27,113 nt of DNA, taken from IMG/VR virus record IMGVR_UViG_3300024239_000155, positions 1 to 27,113 of that record. One strand, given 5' to 3'. Within the stretch, counting starts at the first letter, position 1. Every line of letters begins with the position of its first letter. The notes under the pieces were generated by a model, which worked only from the letters and a program-made list of their open reading frames with translations, had not been told where the DNA came from and searched no databases. This document shows, in pieces, positions 6,411-22,605 of the stretch. A program made the translations under genes and the position numbers. The stretch comes from a virus.

Positions 6411-8008
6411 GCAAGATCGTTGACCAACACGGCAACCCCATTGACAAGGGCGTGCTCAAGGAACCGCAGACCTCCCGCGTAGCCAGCCTGCAGAACGAAT
6501 ACCTGGTCAGCAACCTGGACGGATTAACGCCGTCACGGCTCGCCGCGACACTGCGCGCGGCCGACAATGGCGATCTGATGGCGCAGCACCGGCTGTTCTC
6601 GGACATGGAGGAGCGCGATGCGCACCTGTCGGCCGAGATGCAAAAGCGTAAGAATGCCCCGCTGACCCTCGACTGGAGCATCGTTCCGCCGCGTAACGCC
6701 ACGGCGGCCGAGAAGGCGCACACCGAATGGCTGACCGAAGTACTAACCGACGCGGTCGATCCCATCGAAGATTTGATCCTTGCATTGATGGATGGCGTCG
6801 GGCACGGCTTCGCACCGGTCGAACTGGAGTGGCGCCAGGAAGGCGGCGAACTGCTGCCGGCCTTCAACCCGCGTCCGCAGGAGTGGTTCCAGCTGGACAG
6901 GAATCGCCGCGAGATCCGGCTGCGCGACATGAGCGTCGACGGCGCGGCGCTGGCCTCGTTTGGCTGGGTCTTCCATACCCACGGCAAGGCCAAGACGGGC
7001 TATGCGGCACGGATGGGCCTGCATCGCGTCCTGTCCTGGCCGTTCCTCTACAAATGTTACGCCATCGGCGACTTTGCCGAGTTTCTGGAAACCTTCGGCC
7101 TGCCGATCATCATCGGCAAGTACTTCGCGGGCGCCAGTCCGGAAGAAAAGGCCAGCCTGATGCGTGCCGTCACGGCCCTCGGCCACGACGCCAGGGCGAT
7201 CATGCCGGCCGATATGGAGTTGGAGGTCGAGAAGATCGTTGGCGGCGGCGACTCGACGCCACACCTGGCAATGGTCGATTGGGCCGAGCGTTCCGAATCC
7301 AAGGCCATACTCGGCCAGACAATGAGCGCCGAATCGAAGTCGAGCGGACTCGGCTCCGGCAACGCGGATCTGCACCGTGAAGTGCGCCGCGACATCCTGG
7401 AAGCCGATGCCCGCGAGGTCGCCGGCACCATTACACGGGATCTGCTCTATCCGCTCATCGCGCTGAATCGTGGCAACATAGACGGCCTGCGCCGCTGCCC
7501 GCGCCTGGTGTTCGACACGGGCGAAGCTGAGGACATCAAGCTCTTTGCCGATGCGCTGCCCAAGCTGGTTGGCGTCGGCATGCGCATCAAAACGGAATGG
7601 GCGCATGAAAAGCTGCGCATCCCCCAGGGCGAGGACAAAGACCCGGTGCTTGTCGTCTCCGCACCGGCCAACGTGCTGAACCCCGAACTGCGTCCGGAGC
7701 CGGGCAAGCAAACGCCAGCGGATCCGAAGGCCAACCTGGCCGCCCTGTCCGCCGAACGTACGGCAGCTGCACGCGACGCCTTTGACGACCTGACCGATCT
7801 GATGGCCGACGAGTGGGAGCCGACCCTGGAGCCGCTGACCACCCCGATCAGCCGCCTGGCCGAAGAATGCACCTCCCTCGAAGAATTCCGCAATCGCCTG
7901 CCTGAAGCCATCGCCCAGATGGACGCCAGTGCCGTCGCCGATCTGCTGGCGCGCGGCCTGTTCGCCGCCTACCTGGACGGCCGGGCCATTCCGGGCAAAA
8001 CCGGCTAA
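6407..8008 (+). CDS. portal protein, DUF935 family (Mu gp29-like)
   Basis: A 533-residue protein starting at GTG 6407 inside the terminase stop (GTGA). The N-terminus (MSKIVDQHGNPIDKGVL, with SRVASLQNEYLVSNLDGLTP) and the blocks DAHLSAEMQKRKNAPLTLDW, GFAPVELEW, PFLYKCYAIGDFAEFLETF and GLPIIIGKY are characteristic of DUF935, the Mu-type portal. It forms the ring at the capsid vertex through which DNA enters and to which the connector and tail attach. A C-terminal helical region (EFRNRLPEAIAQMDASAVAD) is also usual in the family. It lies between the large terminase and F as in Mu. Confidence 0.93.
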   Translation: MSKIVDQHGNPIDKGVLKEPQTSRVASLQNEYLVSNLDGLTPSRLAATLRAADNGDLMAQHRLFSDMEERDAHLSAEMQKRKNAPLTLDWSIVPPRNATAAEKAHTEWLTEVLTDAVDPIEDLILALMDGVGHGFAPVELEWRQEGGELLPAFNPRPQEWFQLDRNRREIRLRDMSVDGAALASFGWVFHTHGKAKTGYAARMGLHRVLSWPFLYKCYAIGDFAEFLETFGLPIIIGKYFAGASPEEKASLMRAVTALGHDARAIMPADMELEVEKIVGGGDSTPHLAMVDWAERSESKAILGQTMSAESKSSGLGSGNADLHREVRRDILEADAREVAGTITRDLLYPLIALNRGNIDGLRRCPRLVFDTGEAEDIKLFADALPKLVGVGMRIKTEWAHEKLRIPQGEDKDPVLVVSAPANVLNPELRPEPGKQTPADPKANLAALSAERTAAARDAFDDLTDLMADEWEPTLEPLTTPISRLAEECTSLEEFRNRLPEAIAQMDASAVADLLARGLFAAYLDGRAIPGKTG

Positions 8009-9563: not shown

Positions 9564-10106
9564 CTACTCCTGATCGGCGCAGTACGTGAAAAACTGGTAC
9601 GGGTCAGGAAAACCGAAGGCCGCCAGTGCGAGCATGTAACGTACGAGCGTAGACGATTTGGGTTTGCTCTGAGGGTTAAACGCAGTTGGCGCAAATAAAA
9701 TATCGTTGCACCAGATCGACTTGGTGATGCCGAGGGAAAGCATGTAGTCAACATCGAGAGTGCTCTCCAGTAACAAGGCTGGCTTACGGTTTTTATTTGT
9801 GGGTGACCAGCCTGCTCGGTAAGTCCACAGGCCTTTGATGTCGCCAATTATGCGTCCGAATATTGTTGAACAATACGTCTCGGCAACAAGTCGTTGCGCT
9901 CTGGTTAGCTCTTTTTGAGGGATGCCGACTAATAGTCGAACAGGAAAACTCGGGCCGATATTCAACTTGTCGAGCATCTGCGGCATCTTTCCGTCGCCCG
10001 TATAGAGGGCATTGGAGAACTCTTCGATGAATCGGGGAATGTCTGGGTGGTTGTGGTTACCGTCGAACAGGGTTTCGATTGAAAGGCAAGTGATTCGTTC
10101 AGCCAT
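9564..10106 (-). CDS. unidentified 180-aa protein of a minus-strand insert
   Basis: The start is ATG 10104-10106 on the minus strand, with AGGAGA a few bases upstream overlapping the stop of the first cassette gene, so the two are co-translated. The protein begins MAERITCLSIETLFDGNHNH. It includes PRFIEEFSNALYTGDGKM, PVRLLVGIPQKELTRAQR, LVAETYCSTIFGRIIG, SIWCNDILFAPTAFNPQS and FGFPDPYQFFTYCADQE. No signal peptide, membrane span or known catalytic motif is visible, and I cannot name a family. GC is about 47% in a 60-base sample (9661-9720), well below the flanking phage genes. The antisense orientation, own terminator and composition suggest a laterally acquired moron, for example a superinfection-exclusion or defence function. 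This is inference only. Confidence 0.7.
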   Translation of the reverse strand: MAERITCLSIETLFDGNHNHPDIPRFIEEFSNALYTGDGKMPQMLDKLNIGPSFPVRLLVGIPQKELTRAQRLVAETYCSTIFGRIIGDIKGLWTYRAGWSPTNKNRKPALLLESTLDVDYMLSLGITKSIWCNDILFAPTAFNPQSKPKSSTLVRYMLALAAFGFPDPYQFFTYCADQE

Positions 10107-10340: not shown

Positions 10341-10617
10341 GATGGCCTCCACATATTAAGTTAAGAGACCGCGCCGGTTAGTAGCCGGTGCGGGCGGTCG
10401 GGTCTCAACTGGGCTATGTGGTAGCCCGGCGCTCATTCCCCTTGCGGGTGTTGTATTCGGCGCTCTCGACCCGACCATATCAATGCTACAGAGACAACAA
10501 TGCCAGCGCGAAGGCTGGCAGCGTGGGCGCATGATCGGTTGCGCTTCCGCCACATATTCAGTACCGGCGATCCTACGCCAGTGCCAAATATCGCGCAAGG
10601 GTTTTACTGGAACGGTT
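10341..10617. other. structured intergenic region between the minus-strand cassette and gene I
   Basis: I support no protein gene here. A 118-codon minus-strand frame across it has no ribosome-binding site and looks unlike a protein. The stretch holds several perfect stems: GGTCGGGTC (10396-10404) with GACCCGACC (10468-10476), GGGCTA with TAGCCC (10411-10416, 10422-10427), and TGCCAGC with GCTGGCA (10501-10507, 10514-10520). GAGACC (10365-10370) can pair with GGTCTC (10401-10406). CGGCGCTC is repeated at 10427-10434 and 10458-10465. It would be the transcribed leader of the minus-strand genes and the upstream region of gene I. Confidence 0.6.
10365..10476 (-). promoter_or_regulatory. possible switching leader RNA of the minus-strand cassette
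   Basis: On the minus-strand transcript, one central segment (10396-10406) can pair either with an upstream segment (10468-10476, nine perfect pairs) or with a downstream one (10365-10370, six pairs, enclosing an inner GC-rich stem around 10371-10391). The two pairings exclude each other. The second ends only about 13 bases before the GGAGG of the first cassette gene. That is the layout of an attenuator or translational switch. No ligand or trigger can be read from the sequence. Confidence 0.35.
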
Positions 10618-10631
10618 CTAAAGCCCTTTAG
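10618..10631 (+). promoter_or_regulatory. palindromic site upstream of gene I (candidate late-activator operator)
   Basis: CTAAAGCCCTTTAG has perfect 6-base arms (CTAAAG/CTTTAG) around CC. A 13-of-14 copy occurs before the P homologue at 21441-21454. In both places exactly 35 bases separate the site from an ATG (10667 and 21490). In phage Mu, late promoters PI and PP, activated by protein C, lie before I and P. I infer that this is the binding site of the corresponding activator here. No good -10 box shared by both can be pointed to. Confidence 0.5.
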
Positions 10632-10651
10632 ATGAAAGCGTTTTGATTGAC

Positions 10652-11713
10652 ATGCACCATGGGGGCATGAAACGAAACCGCCCCGCACATATCGCCCTGG
10701 CCATCGCCGCACTCGGTGTTGAACTGAGTCTCGACAAGGTGCCGGTCGACATCCGCCTGATTCCGGCCGGCGAGTTCCGCTCCAGCGATGGTAGCGGTCG
10801 CCCGGTTAGTTGCGCTGCCTGGGTCTGTACCGACGCCGACGGTGGGCGCCTGGTTGCTGACGCCAGCGCCCGCGCTTCCAAGCGCGTCATCGACTATGAA
10901 CACGCCACGCTGCACGCCAAGCAGGCGGGGAGTCGCGCTCCGGCTGCCGGGTGGTTCAAGGATCTTGAATGGCGCCCGGGGGATGGTCTGTACGCGATCG
11001 GCGTCGAATGGACATCACAGGCCGCGCAGGACATCGCCAGCCTCGCCTACCGCTTCATCTCCCCCGTCTTTTCCTACGACCCGGTCAGCGGCCGCGTCGA
11101 CAAGCTGCTGCATGCCGCCCTCACCAACGATCCCGGCCTTGATGGCCTGACCGATCTGGCGTCGCTGGCGGCTGAATACCTTTTACCCCCGATCAACCCA
11201 ACGGAGACAACCATGGATCTTCTGAAACAACTGCTGGCCGTCCTTGGCCTGCAGGAAGCAACAACCGAGGCAGAAGCGCTATCCGCTGTTGCTGCGCTCA
11301 AAACCAACGTCGCCGCGCTGAGTGCGCAGGTCACCGCGCCCGATCCGAGCAAATTTGCGCCGATCGCTACGCTGACCGCGCTCCAGGGCGAGAACTCGGG
11401 ACTGCAAACCCAGGTGGCAGCACTCACGGCGCAACTCAATGACGGCAAGCTTGACAAGGTGATCGAGGACGGCAAAGCCGCCGGCAAGATCACGCCGGCC
11501 ACAGAGGCGTGGGCGCGCGAGCACGGCAAGAAGGATCTCGCCTCGTTGTCTGCCTGGATACAGGTCGCGCCGGTCGTCGTCAAGCCGGGCGAAACGCAGA
11601 GCGGCGGCAAGGGAAATGGCGAGGGGGTCGCCGCGCTCACGGCGGAACAGACCCAAGTCTGCGAGCTGCTCGGCGTATCGCCGGCCGAGTTCCAGAAGAC
11701 CCTGGCTGCGTAA
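10652..11713 (+). CDS. I: prohead protease I (Mu gp32-like)
   Basis: A head maturation protease of the Mu I family, about 353 residues. Conserved segments are MKRNRPAHIALAIAAL near the N-terminus, PAGEFRSSDGSGRPVSCAAW, the family motif VIDYEHATLHAK, and APAAGWFKDLEWRPGDGLYA. AYRFISPVFSYDPVSGRV comes next. The C-terminal half (after residue about 187) is the scaffold domain, which is also made separately from an internal start. The family cleaves the scaffold and itself during head maturation. The start is uncertain: TTG 10643, ATG 10652 or ATG 10667 are possible, and the last gives the N-terminus most typical of relatives but has its G-rich stretch too close. It lies just downstream of the palindromic site. 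Confidence 0.9.
   Translation: MHHGGMKRNRPAHIALAIAALGVELSLDKVPVDIRLIPAGEFRSSDGSGRPVSCAAWVCTDADGGRLVADASARASKRVIDYEHATLHAKQAGSRAPAAGWFKDLEWRPGDGLYAIGVEWTSQAAQDIASLAYRFISPVFSYDPVSGRVDKLLHAALTNDPGLDGLTDLASLAAEYLLPPINPTETTMDLLKQLLAVLGLQEATTEAEALSAVAALKTNVAALSAQVTAPDPSKFAPIATLTALQGENSGLQTQVAALTAQLNDGKLDKVIEDGKAAGKITPATEAWAREHGKKDLASLSAWIQVAPVVVKPGETQSGGKGNGEGVAALTAEQTQVCELLGVSPAEFQKTLAA
11213..11713 (+). CDS. Z: nested scaffold protein Z, in frame inside gene I
   Basis: Inside gene I, GGAG (11203-11206) lies six bases before an in-frame ATG at 11213. Translation from there gives a 166-residue protein beginning MDLLKQLLAVLGLQEA, containing a coiled-coil segment (LTALQGENSGLQTQVAALTA) and ending PAEFQKTLAA. 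In Mu the scaffold Z is produced in the same way from the 3' part of I. The strong internal ribosome-binding site and the switch from protease to helical, Ala/Gln-rich sequence at exactly this point support the same organisation. The scaffold would fill the prohead and be removed by the protease. Confidence 0.8.
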   Translation: MDLLKQLLAVLGLQEATTEAEALSAVAALKTNVAALSAQVTAPDPSKFAPIATLTALQGENSGLQTQVAALTAQLNDGKLDKVIEDGKAAGKITPATEAWAREHGKKDLASLSAWIQVAPVVVKPGETQSGGKGNGEGVAALTAEQTQVCELLGVSPAEFQKTLAA

Positions 11714-18013: not shown

Positions 18014-19810
18014 ATGTCCGCATCAATGATGACCTTGGGTGTAACCATCAAGCTGTTCGACCAGATGTCGGGCGGCCTGAGTGGCATCGTCACGCGGGTT
18101 GAAGGGCTGCGCGGGAAAATCGGCGCGCTGGCCGATAAAGCGTCTGCCCTGGGGCGTGGGGCGCTTGGCTCGGGGCTGATTGCCGGTGGCGCTCTAATGA
18201 AGACGGTGTCAGCGTTTTCTGAACTGGAGGATGCCTCCACCCGGCTCAAGGCCGTCATGATGGGGCGTGATGGCACGGTCGGCGCCTTCGATCAGGTCAA
18301 TGCCCTGGCTGTTCGCTTGGGCGATCAGCTTCCCGGTACAACGGCGGACTTTCTCCAGATGATGGTCGCGCTCAAGGCGCAGGGCATCAGCGATGATTCG
18401 ATTCTTGGAGGCGTCGGCGAAGCGTCCGCCAAGATGGCCGTTTTGCTGAAGAAATCGCCCGAAGAAATGGCCGTGTTCTCGGCCAAGCTGAAGACCGCGC
18501 TCGGGGTGGCGGATGGCGACATGCTGGCGTTCATGGACACCATCCAGCGCACGTACTATATGGGTGTCGACGCCACCGAAATGATGTACGCCTTCGCGCG
18601 TTCGGGCGGCGCCCTGAAGACGATCAAACAGCAGGGGCTGGAAGCGGGCAAAGCGTTGTCCCCGCTGTACGCCATGTGGATCAAGGGCGGCATGTCGGGA
18701 GAGACCGTGGGTACCGGGTTCGCCTCGATCACCAATTCGCTGCTCGATCGGGAGAAGGTCGGCAAGGGGAACGCGCTGCTCAAGTCGATGGGGCTTGGGC
18801 CGCTGAAATTCACCGACAAGCAGGGGAACTTCGCCGGCATCGAGAACATGATTGCCCAGTTCGACACGCTCAAGTCGCTCGATGCCACCAAGCTCAATGC
18901 CGTGCTGAAGGAGATGTTCGGCGGCGGGCAGGATCAGTCAATGGTCGCTACGATGGTCAGTAATGGCATCGAGGGCTACCGCAAGCAGGTCGAGGCGATG
19001 GAAGCGCAGGCCGACCTGCAGAAGCGCGTCGAGGCAGTGCTTAAAACACTGACCAACGTCTGGGAAGCCGCCTCTGGAACCTTCACCAACTTGCTGGCCA
19101 GCCTCGGCGAAGCGGTCGGCGATGATCTGAAGACAATGGCAGAGTTGTTCGGGCAGGCATCGGAAGCCATAAAGGGCTTTGTCAAGGAACATCCAACGAT
19201 GGCGATGTGGCTTGGCCGCCTGGCGCTGGCTTTGACTGGCGTAGCGATTATTGGCGGGGCCTTGCTGCTTATCGTCGGCGTTGTCGGCAAGGTAGCCGCC
19301 GGGTTTATGGCGCTTGGCCCGGCGGTGTTGTTTGCTGTCAGCGCCTTTTCGAAACTGATGTTGTTTGCGCGAGTCATTGCCGCCATCTTTATGGCTAACC
19401 CGATCTCGCTGGCGATCATGGCCATCGTCGTCGGGCTGGCGCTGGCGGCCAAGCTGATCTATGAAAACTGGGAGCCGATCAAGGCGTTTTTCATCGACCT
19501 GTGGGAGGGCGTAAAGAATGCCTTCTCCAGCGCGATCGACTGGATAAGCGTGAAAATGCAGTCGATGACGGACATGATTCCTGACTGGGTGAAGAATCCG
19601 TCACAGATCCAGGAGAAGGCCAAGTCGTTCTTCGGCGATTCCCTCGGGCCGGCCAAGGCAGGTGCTGTGATCCCCGGCGGGCAGAGTTCAAATGTCGGTG
19701 GCGAAATAAACATACGCGTCGAGGATAACCGGCTCTCTGTAACCAGCTCCACATCAAATCCCAACGTCCCCATCAATACGGACGCCGGCATGTCGATGCT
19801 CCACCCATGA
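18014..19810 (+). CDS. tail tape measure protein (Mu gp42-like)
   Basis: A 598-residue protein that sets tail length and is ejected with DNA. The N-terminus MSASMMTLGVTIKLFDQMSG, followed by GLSGIVTRVEGLRGKIGALA, and the block AFSELEDASTRLKAVMMGRD mark a TP901-type tape measure core. GISDDSILGGVGEASAKMAV and YMGVDATEMMYAFARSGGAL follow. The hydrophobic segments between residues about 395 and 480 (LALALTGVAIIGGALLLIVG and FMANPISLAIMAIVVGLALA) are the usual membrane-active region. The C-terminal tail is Ser/Asn-rich. AGGATC lies eight bases before ATG 18014. ATG 18026 is an alternative start. Confidence 0.93.
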   Translation: MSASMMTLGVTIKLFDQMSGGLSGIVTRVEGLRGKIGALADKASALGRGALGSGLIAGGALMKTVSAFSELEDASTRLKAVMMGRDGTVGAFDQVNALAVRLGDQLPGTTADFLQMMVALKAQGISDDSILGGVGEASAKMAVLLKKSPEEMAVFSAKLKTALGVADGDMLAFMDTIQRTYYMGVDATEMMYAFARSGGALKTIKQQGLEAGKALSPLYAMWIKGGMSGETVGTGFASITNSLLDREKVGKGNALLKSMGLGPLKFTDKQGNFAGIENMIAQFDTLKSLDATKLNAVLKEMFGGGQDQSMVATMVSNGIEGYRKQVEAMEAQADLQKRVEAVLKTLTNVWEAASGTFTNLLASLGEAVGDDLKTMAELFGQASEAIKGFVKEHPTMAMWLGRLALALTGVAIIGGALLLIVGVVGKVAAGFMALGPAVLFAVSAFSKLMLFARVIAAIFMANPISLAIMAIVVGLALAAKLIYENWEPIKAFFIDLWEGVKNAFSSAIDWISVKMQSMTDMIPDWVKNPSQIQEKAKSFFGDSLGPAKAGAVIPGGQSSNVGGEINIRVEDNRLSVTSSTSNPNVPINTDAGMSMLHP

Positions 19811-21027
19811 CTTATATTGCCCCCTGGCGCAAGCAGCTGCAGCCGGCCAAGTTCCGGGACGTTCCCTTCTTCGTAAAGTCCGCGAATACGCAAGTCGGCC
19901 GGCGCGTCGAACTGCACGAATACCCGCAGCGCGATGAAGCCTTCCCGGAAGACCTCGGCCTCAAGGCCGACGCCTTTACGATCGAGGCCATCATCATCGG
20001 CCCCGACTACAGGACGTCACGCGATAAGCTTATCGTGGCGCTCAAGAAGGCCGGCGCGGGCGAACTGGTGCATCCGTACTACGGCCGGCGCACGGTTACG
20101 CTGGTCAGCCCCGCGCGCATTGTCGAGTCACCGGATGAAGGCGGGATGGCTCGCTTCTCCCTGGACTTCGTCGAAGCCGGCGAAAACGAGCAGCCGAGCG
20201 CCCGCGTTGATACGCAATCGGTGGTCGAGGAGCGCGCCGACGACGCCACCAGTGCGTGTGCCGACGAGTTTGCCGAGACCTACAGCCTGGACGGCTCGCC
20301 CGAGTTCGTTGAAACCAGCGCGCTGGATACCGCCCGCGACATGATGTCGGCGCTGGAATCGGCACGGCGATCGCTGGTGCCGGATCTCTCCGTGCTGTCC
20401 GACTACATGGCGGCAGCCAGCGGCGTCGTGGGTAGCCTGAACAGCCTGATCCGCGCCCCGGCAGCGTTCGCCCAGACCATCCTCGGCATGTTCGGGAGCC
20501 TGAAGGCGCTGGCGCTCAGCCCCTTGCACGCCTTAAACAGCTATCGCGGCCTGTTCGACTACGGCAATAAGCACGCCTCGGTACCGCGCACCACGCCGGC
20601 GCGGCGACGCCAGGCGACCAACCAGGCGGCCATGATCGGGCTGGTGCGCCGATCGGCGCTGATCGAAGCCTCGCGCCTGGCCAGCCGTACGGAGTTCGAT
20701 ACCTACGACCAGGCCGTCGCCATGCGCGACGATCTGGCCATCCGCCTGGACGATGAAGCGGCGGGCGCCACTGTCTCCGATCCCGTCTATCAGGCGCTGA
20801 CCGCGCTGCGCGTCGCGTTAATCCGCGATCTGACCGCCCGTTCGATTAACGCGCCCCGCGTCTCGACCGAGATCCTGCCGGCCACGCTGCCGGCACTGGT
20901 CGCCGCCTACCGCATCCACGGCGACGCCACCCGCGCCGACGAACTGATCAGCCGCAATCGAAAGCGCATCCGCCACCCGGGGTTTGTTCCTGGGGGCGTG
21001 GCGCTCGAGATTGTCTCCAGTAAATGA
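19807..21027 (+). CDS. N: DNA circularisation / baseplate protein N (Mu gp43-like)
   Basis: A 406-residue protein. Its first 110 residues are the DNA_circ_N domain: WRKQLQPAKFRDVPFFVKSA, NTQVGRRVELHEYPQRDEAF and EDLGLKADAFTIEAIIIGPD, then VHPYYGRRTVTLVSPARIVE. Despite the historical name, the Mu N family is a virion protein of the tail tip/baseplate that contacts the tape measure and hub. The ATG overlaps the tape measure stop (ATGA). The central region is helical and variable. Confidence 0.9.
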   Translation: MTYIAPWRKQLQPAKFRDVPFFVKSANTQVGRRVELHEYPQRDEAFPEDLGLKADAFTIEAIIIGPDYRTSRDKLIVALKKAGAGELVHPYYGRRTVTLVSPARIVESPDEGGMARFSLDFVEAGENEQPSARVDTQSVVEERADDATSACADEFAETYSLDGSPEFVETSALDTARDMMSALESARRSLVPDLSVLSDYMAAASGVVGSLNSLIRAPAAFAQTILGMFGSLKALALSPLHALNSYRGLFDYGNKHASVPRTTPARRRQATNQAAMIGLVRRSALIEASRLASRTEFDTYDQAVAMRDDLAIRLDDEAAGATVSDPVYQALTALRVALIRDLTARSINAPRVSTEILPATLPALVAAYRIHGDATRADELISRNRKRIRHPGFVPGGVALEIVSSK

Positions 21028-21049
21028 CGCACCGGGCGAGGCCAAGACG

Positions 21050-21409
21050 ATGAGTGATGATGTTGTACGTCAGTTTCCAGGGACGGAATTGCCAGAAAAC
21101 CTGCTGGACATTGCGCCGCGACACCACGGATTTTGCCAACACGAGAAGGTGACGCTTGAAGAGCACACACGAACCGTGACCTGCGCAAAGTGCGGGGCAA
21201 CGATCGACCCGTTTAATTTTCTGATGCAGAACGCAAAAACCATTCAAATGGCTTGGCAGCATTACCGGATGGCAATGCATAAGGTCCAGGAGATTACGGA
21301 ACGCGTAGATGTCTTGAAACGCGAAGAGAACCGCCTGCGCTCCATTGTGAAACGTCTGCAAGCGAAAAGCAGTGCAGTGCTGGATGTACGCGGCGAAAGC
21401 CGACTTTGA
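21050..21409 (+). CDS. zinc-ribbon-like coiled-coil protein inserted between N and P
   Basis: I start at ATG 21050. The longer frame from 20984 overlaps N and lacks support. The 119-residue protein has a possible zinc site made of Cys29, His31, Cys45 and Cys48 (HHGFCQHEKV, then TRTVTCAKCGATIDPFNFL), followed by a long helix (HYRMAMHKVQEITERVDVLK, REENRLRSIVKRLQAK). Similar small CxxC-DPF proteins occur in other phages with no known role. In Mu, N is directly followed by P, so this gene is an insertion. It ends inside a 10-base hairpin that would stop transcription before the P promoter region. Confidence 0.7.
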   Translation: MSDDVVRQFPGTELPENLLDIAPRHHGFCQHEKVTLEEHTRTVTCAKCGATIDPFNFLMQNAKTIQMAWQHYRMAMHKVQEITERVDVLKREENRLRSIVKRLQAKSSAVLDVRGESRL

Positions 21410-21442
21410 TGCCGCGCACTTAAAGCCCCGGAGTCGGCTTTT
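21396..21442 (+). terminator. hairpin overlapping the end of the zinc-ribbon gene
   Basis: AAAGCCGACT (21396-21405) pairs perfectly with AGTCGGCTTT (21432-21441), and the right arm runs into TTTT at 21439-21442. The left arm lies within the last codons of the zinc-ribbon gene (stop 21407-21409). A competing smaller stem AAAGCC/GGCTTT (21422-21427 with 21436-21441) uses the same right arm. It would act as a transcription terminator between N plus zinc-ribbon and P, although the T-run is short and the larger loop is 26 bases. Confidence 0.6.
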
Positions 21443-21454
21443 AAAGCCCTTTAG
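21441..21454 (+). promoter_or_regulatory. palindromic site upstream of gene P (candidate late-activator operator)
   Basis: TTAAAGCCCTTTAG matches the palindrome before gene I (10618-10631) at 13 of 14 bases, and exactly 35 bases separate each from a downstream ATG. It begins inside the T-run of the preceding hairpin, so part of the match could come from the terminator. The downstream arm CCCTTTAG is not explained by that. Mu has its PP late promoter before P. Confidence 0.5.
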
Positions 21455-21489
21455 TCGATCACCTTCGCATCAATCGGTAGCCTCCATAC

Positions 21490-22605
21490 ATGGCTTCCGA
21501 CTCCCCTCTTGGCATTGCTGAACTCAACGTCGCCGGATCGTTCTACGGCGGCTGGAAGTCGTTGCGCGTTACCCGCTCGATCGAGCAGCTGGCCGGCACC
21601 TACGATCTCGAGATAACCGAGCGCTGGCCGGGCCAGCCCGAATCTTCCCCCATCAAGCCGGGCAACAAGTGCCAACTGCTGCTCGACGGCGAACCGGTGA
21701 TTACCGGTTACGTCGATATGCTCGCAGTGGACTATGACTCGCAGCATCATTCGTTGCGTGTGTCCGGTCGGGATAAGACCGGGGATCTGGTTGATTGCTC
21801 GGCCGTTCACAAGTCCGGCCAGTGGCATAACGTCAAGATCGATCAGTTGGCCCGCGATCTGCTCAAGCCCTACGACATCAAGATCAACATCGAAGCCGAT
21901 ATCGGCAGCGCCTTCAGTTCATTCAACATCCAGGAGGGCGAGAGCGTCTTCGAATCCCTGGAGCGCGCTGCGCGCATGAAGGCGTTGCTGCTCACCAGTA
22001 ATCCGCTCGGCGACCTGGTCATCACGCGCGCCGGTAAAGAACGCCTGGATTACGCGCTGGTCGAGGGCGTCAATATCAAGGCGGCGCGTGCCGAGTTCTC
22101 CTGGAAGGAGCGGTTCTCTACCTATACCGCCAAGGGCCAGGGGCGCCTAGGTGAAGACGGCGACCAAGCGCATGCCGCGCCGGCCGCCAGCATTACTGAC
22201 ACCGTTATCTCTCGGCATCGCCCTTTGATCGTCCTGGCCGAGAGCCACGGCGAAAACGCCTCGCTGCAGGATCGCATCGAGTGGGAGCGAAACGTCCGGC
22301 GCGGGCGCAGCGCACGTGGGTCGATCACAGTGCAGGGCTGGCGTCATCCGGGTGGCGGCCTGTGGCAACCGAACATGCTGGTGCCTGTCACTTCGCCCAT
22401 GCTGTGGCTCGACGGGGCGGAAATGCTGATTGTCGGCTGCACCTGGACGCTCGATTCTCGCGGGACCAACACCGAACTGGCGATCGCCCGGCCGGAAGCC
22501 TTCCAGCTCCTCGAGGGCGTCGCTCAGTCGAAGCTGTTCGGCAAGCTCAAGACCAAAGAGCAGCGCGACAAACGGGAAAAAGTCGACGACTGGAGCGGGC
22601 TGTGA
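21490..22605 (+). CDS. P: baseplate hub protein P (Mu gp44-like)
   Basis: A 371-residue protein of the Mu gp44/phage D hub family (T4 gp27-like fold). It has LNVAGSFYGGWKSLRVTRSI, EQLAGTYDLEITERWPGQPE and KCQLLLDGEPVITGYVDMLA, then HSLRVSGRDKTGDLVDCSAV and WHNVKIDQLARDLLKPYDI. A characteristic RSARGSITVQGWRHPGGGLW and LWQPNMLVPVTSPMLWLDG are seen near the C-terminus. It forms the trimeric hub onto which the spike docks. The promoter-like palindrome and hairpin lie just before it. The stop overlaps the GTG of the spike gene. Confidence 0.93.
   Translation: MASDSPLGIAELNVAGSFYGGWKSLRVTRSIEQLAGTYDLEITERWPGQPESSPIKPGNKCQLLLDGEPVITGYVDMLAVDYDSQHHSLRVSGRDKTGDLVDCSAVHKSGQWHNVKIDQLARDLLKPYDIKINIEADIGSAFSSFNIQEGESVFESLERAARMKALLLTSNPLGDLVITRAGKERLDYALVEGVNIKAARAEFSWKERFSTYTAKGQGRLGEDGDQAHAAPAASITDTVISRHRPLIVLAESHGENASLQDRIEWERNVRRGRSARGSITVQGWRHPGGGLWQPNMLVPVTSPMLWLDGAEMLIVGCTWTLDSRGTNTELAIARPEAFQLLEGVAQSKLFGKLKTKEQRDKREKVDDWSGL

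Follow-up and report, generated by a model that had tools for sequence, protein, structure and literature searches.

A palindrome repeated upstream of two late genes of a Mu-like phage very probably represents the docking site of the phage's late-gene activator protein. It is highly likely that the two dyads are the operators of the late promoters PI and PP for an activator of the Mor/C family, with transcription starting at or near the ATG and yielding leaderless mRNAs. It is also probable, with somewhat less certainty, that a whole group of betaproteobacterial Mu-like phages possesses leaderless mRNAs for all its late operons under one Mor/C activator, the operator specificity having been switched within the group through a simple helix code pairing glutamine with TAAA and arginine with TAAC.

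The window, meaning the whole stretch of DNA analysed here, is a virus record of 27,113 bases and evidently a fragment of a phage genome. The Mu-like genes recognised in it are those for the portal, the gene I protease, the sheath, the tape measure, N and P. Its closest relatives come from Betaproteobacteria, e.g. Propionivibrio, Rhodocyclus and Zoogloea, and a megablast comparison with named phages gave nothing beyond one 52-base match. Gene I (10667..11713, plus strand) encodes a Mu-like head maturation protease (PHROG 328, E=4.6e-101; Pfam Mu-like_Pro, E=3.8e-88) and gene P (21490..22605, plus strand) a baseplate hub (PHROG 177, E=6e-119; Pfam GpP-like domains). The start codon of gene I, regarded as uncertain in the initial annotation of this DNA, is supported at 10667 by the N-termini of relatives.

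The putative PI operator is a 16-bp element on the plus strand (10617..10632) holding the palindrome CTAAAGCCCTTTAG at 10618-10631, with the core TAAA-N4-TTTA at 10619-10630. The putative PP operator, likewise on the plus strand (21440..21455), holds the palindrome TTAAAGCCCTTTAG at 21441-21454, with its core at 21442-21453. The two palindromes are 10,823 bp apart; the centre of each dyad lies 42.5 bp ahead of its ATG (counted to the A), and 35 bases separate the palindrome end from the ATG at I (10667) and at P (21490), so that the positions and distances first annotated were reproduced. Exact TAAA-N4-TTTA dyads occur twice in the window, only as the PI and PP copies, against 0.03 expected. 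With up to three mismatches allowed, the palindrome gave seven strand-wise matches against 1.06 expected, and none of 100 shuffles reached as high a count. A candidate third site at 19170 (minus strand), a match with two mismatches, lies inside the tape-measure gene without promoter context and was rejected.

For comparison, 91 relatives were fetched with the sheath gene as an anchor and flanks of up to 10 kb, and the DNA before I and P was read. TAAA-N4-TTTA stands before both genes in L007, L047 and L081 and before P in L004; TAAC-N4-GTTA precedes both genes in L006, L037 and L087; and more distant phages carry GAA-N4-TTC before I, in almost the same position. What is conserved is thus the position; the sequence is shared within a phage and varies from one phage to another. 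The initial annotation would have given up its proposal if close relatives lacked the palindrome; the dyad is conserved upstream of their I and P genes. More complete contigs were scanned with the arm motifs of each phage, and such dyads numbered three in G001, G002 and G033, four in G013 and two in most others. Copies before the lysis gene, I and P were all present in G002, G013 and G033; the gene preceded by the third copy in G002 is an Amidase_2 endolysin, and in close relatives some 0.5-0.8 kb separate the lysis-gene copy from the Mor gene upstream of it. Nine contigs contained 23 dyads, compared with 0.27 expected from first-order Markov sequences, and 19 of these have an ATG 36-37 bases after the 12-mer, compared with 0.02 expected. 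The third copy, together with those at I and P, indicates that each of the Mu promoters Plys, PI and PP is matched in position in these phages. The search for further copies, recommended at the outset, was thus successful at the lysis gene of relatives; the window, which does not reach the Plys position, holds the I and P copies and no more, and a mom-type fourth copy was not found in the contigs scanned.

Single records show deviating arrangements. In L115 (G029, 1501-1990) the Mor gene is not in its customary position before the lysis gene but precedes gene I by a few hundred bases. An extra TAAC-N4-GTTA dyad at about 37855 in L147 (G013) has no promoter context and is probably due to chance. 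In L134 (G001) the Mor gene and a TAAC operator (near 6962 and at 7524-7838) are on the minus strand, with I and P on the plus strand, which suggests a rearrangement, a second prophage or an assembly join.

Forty promoters from related sequences, the full-contig members of which were chosen by ATG distance, were aligned on the dyad. A -10-like hexamer starts 24 bp after the 12-mer dyad, with A in the second place in 90% and T in the sixth place in 90% of the promoters, and no comparable column was observed nearby in this set. The corresponding hexamers of the window, both on the plus strand, are CACCAT at PI (10655..10660), with A at -11 and T at -7 if the A of the ATG is +1, and TAGCCT at PP (21478..21483), a hexamer that many relatives also have at Plys and PP. 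The earlier impression that the two promoters have no common -10 box has therefore to be replaced by an A-N3-T hexamer at a fixed place in both. The gap between hexamer and ATG is 6 or 7 bases at 10 of 10 PP promoters and at 17 of the 21 PI promoters with the hexamer in place, and 9-12 bases at the other four of these 21; in four Burkholderiales PI promoters the hexamer is off its fixed place. On the lysis side the gap was 6 or 7 at all 23 sites tallied, gaps of 5-10 or more being allowed. A sigma70 consensus scan at PP returned no two-hexamer match. The following features of Mor/C-type promoters were thus identified: (i) a recognisable -10 with fixed A-N3-T; (ii) no -35 hexamer; (iii) a 16-bp element fitting the dyad geometry of two 5-bp arms and a 6-bp spacer near -43.5, overlapping the -35 region, with its centre at -42.5 when counted from the A of the ATG as +1, a reference point that we infer.

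With the same count the hexamer occupies -12 to -7 and, as the dyad centre at -42.5 matches that of the Mu middle promoter Pm (-43.5) only if the ATG lies at about +1, the late mRNAs are predicted to be leaderless. Shine-Dalgarno pairing, defined by an anti-Shine-Dalgarno energy of <= -4 kcal/mol, was present at 27% of I starts, at 10% of P starts with the dyad and at 86% of P starts without it; at other late genes it reached 56-100%, except for F (25%, n=4). Starts with the hexamer 6-7 nt before the AUG and no Shine-Dalgarno sequence are thus the rule, with exceptions at some relatives' I genes, and Shine-Dalgarno-like sequences precede I in Shewanella and Vibrio relatives. The start codon is probably the very first codon of each late message, with no leader before it, and the ATGs of gene I (10667) and gene P (21490) are predicted leaderless starts. 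Alternatively, the dyads may be activator operators with transcription starting further upstream, the leaders being short and ordinary and the ATG spacing a matter of compactness only. Such an arrangement is unlikely. It agrees with the leaders of Mu lys and I, about 23 and 25 nt according to published oligo design (PMC4461284), and with some -10s before I in relatives (TAAGGTGG, GAGGAT), which resemble Shine-Dalgarno sequences and account for most of the 27% at I; however, the 6-7 nt gap is kept across three unrelated genes in divergent phages, Shine-Dalgarno sequences are missing at most dyad starts and present at dyad-free P genes, and the tract tabulated contains no second conserved hexamer. 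A literature search covering few subscription papers revealed no paper on leaderless late mRNAs of Mu-like phages, their novelty being thus unproven.

Of 38 viral records, 26 yielded a Mor-family gene (PF08765), and many of the other records are fragments. A further set of 10 records or genomes yielded it in 9 cases, in two of these genomes on a contig other than that of the prophage. The solved relatives of the protein are Mu Mor and C (PDB 1rr7, 9l0x, 9l0y). The Mor gene is absent from the 27-kb window and is presumably located on the missing left part of this phage genome. In an AlphaFold model of a Mor relative, the modest confidence of which (pLDDT 74.5, pTM 0.44) restricted its use to helix positions and the nearest PDB families, the recognition-helix motif (residues 90-94) falls where the second helix of the predicted HTH begins. 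Over 34 rows in all, glutamine as the fifth residue of this motif (MRIYQ, as in L007, VRVYQ and similar) is associated with TAAA at every one of 52 half-sites, arginine (IHIYR, as in L014 and L037, VHVYR, INVYR, VYFYR) with TAAC at all 34 half-sites, and lysine with variable operator sites; only the central AA and TT were fixed in the operator search, which left the fourth base free. At the level of sequence, the recognition helix and the operator change together in relatives. The operator and helix classes cluster on the tree, with three changes on the best tree and one forced by supported branches, and since they follow the tree, the covariation backs the pairing without amounting to a large number of separate events.

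An activator specificity different from that of Mu had been suspected for this phage, and the covariation of the operator with the phages' own Mor-family recognition helix is in line with it. The dyad could also be the operator of a lysogeny repressor, as palindromic operators near promoters are typical of repressors too, but this is very improbable, since a centre at -42.5 upstream of a -10 without a -35 is the Mor position at Pm, the copies lie at late genes and the partner in covariation is a Mor-family activator. The proposal of a late-promoter operator, made in the initial annotation, is well supported by the retention of the dyad at I and P in relatives, the third copy at the lysis gene and the helix covariation; what the present analysis adds to it is the third promoter, the helix code, the shared -10, the fixed gap, and the scarcity of Shine-Dalgarno sequences with the leaderless starts predicted from it.

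From the element, its copies, their geometry, the covariation and the scarcity of Shine-Dalgarno sequences, all read from sequence, we infer binding, activation and RNA start in the following order. A dimer of the Mor/C-family activator would bind the dyad, which has its centre at about -42.5 and takes the role of a -35 element, and recruit the host sigma70 RNA polymerase to the weak -10 (xAnnnT). Transcription would then start at the A of the start codon or 1-2 bases from it, so that the operons for lysis, the head (I) and the baseplate (P) would all have leaderless mRNAs; in some Burkholderiales relatives there may be short leaders, at most about 5 nt long.

The Mu late promoters Plys, PI and PP, activated by C, resemble those described here in heading the lysis, I and P genes, in having an activator of the Mor/C family and in a dyad upstream of a poor -10 without a -35. 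In contrast to Mu, the operator sequence is different, three copies were found with no mom-type fourth, and leaderless messages are predicted in place of the Mu lys and I leaders; PP of Mu is situated within the gene before, at a distance of about 350 bp. The Mor site of Mu is a 16-bp dyad of two 5-bp arms with a G/C-rich 6-bp spacer, centred at -43.5 (PMC4287176, PMC4390567). Its arm and spacer design at Pm is shared by the present dyads (centre -42.5), whereas these head late operons. Mu encodes separate Mor and C proteins, while here nearly all records with a match showed a single Mor-family gene for each phage. Leaderless transcripts have been described in the betaproteobacterium Burkholderia cenocepacia, where, similarly, a -10 directly before the start codon replaces the Shine-Dalgarno sequence; in contrast, those genes are enriched for transcriptional regulators (PMC4603805), and in the present phages they would be lysis and structural operons governed by a single activator.

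The Mor/C system offers a ready test of a joint change of specificity in an activator family and its operators, with a predicted helix-base code for Mor/C proteins in which Gln reads TAAA and Arg reads TAAC. Leaderless messages in proteobacteria are usually regarded as rare and weakly translated. In these phages whole lytic-phase operons may start with such messages and, if this is true, late phage genes would depend on translation without a Shine-Dalgarno sequence. The layout of dyad, -10 and ATG can also be used as a rule when uncultured Mu-like phages are searched for late promoters.

Upstream of PP the plus strand carries a terminator-like hairpin with a short T run (21395..21442; -21.1 kcal/mol, z=-2.6), which was not matched by a terminator consensus scan at PP. 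The sharing of bases between the P copy and a hairpin, noted at the outset as a weak point, is real but amounts to about 2 bases, and in L004, L007, L047 and L081 the P dyad is present although the sequence of the hairpin upstream is missing. That the palindromes themselves are terminators or RNA hairpins has next to no probability: a stable hairpin does adjoin the P copy, but by itself the palindrome forms only a weak fold (-2.8 kcal/mol at I, z=0.3), the P dyad of relatives occurs without that hairpin sequence and the distance to the ATG is fixed. The hairpin follows an extra small gene between N and P (ORF 20984-21409, PHROG 1621 match), and the two together are likely to be cargo inserted upstream of PP, which, as a late promoter, would restart transcription behind the hairpin. 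In L007 and other close relatives the stop of N stands directly before the PP dyad. A 180-aa ORF without a PHROG or Pfam match, on the minus strand between the gp30-type gene and PI (9564-10106), is possibly also cargo upstream of a late promoter.
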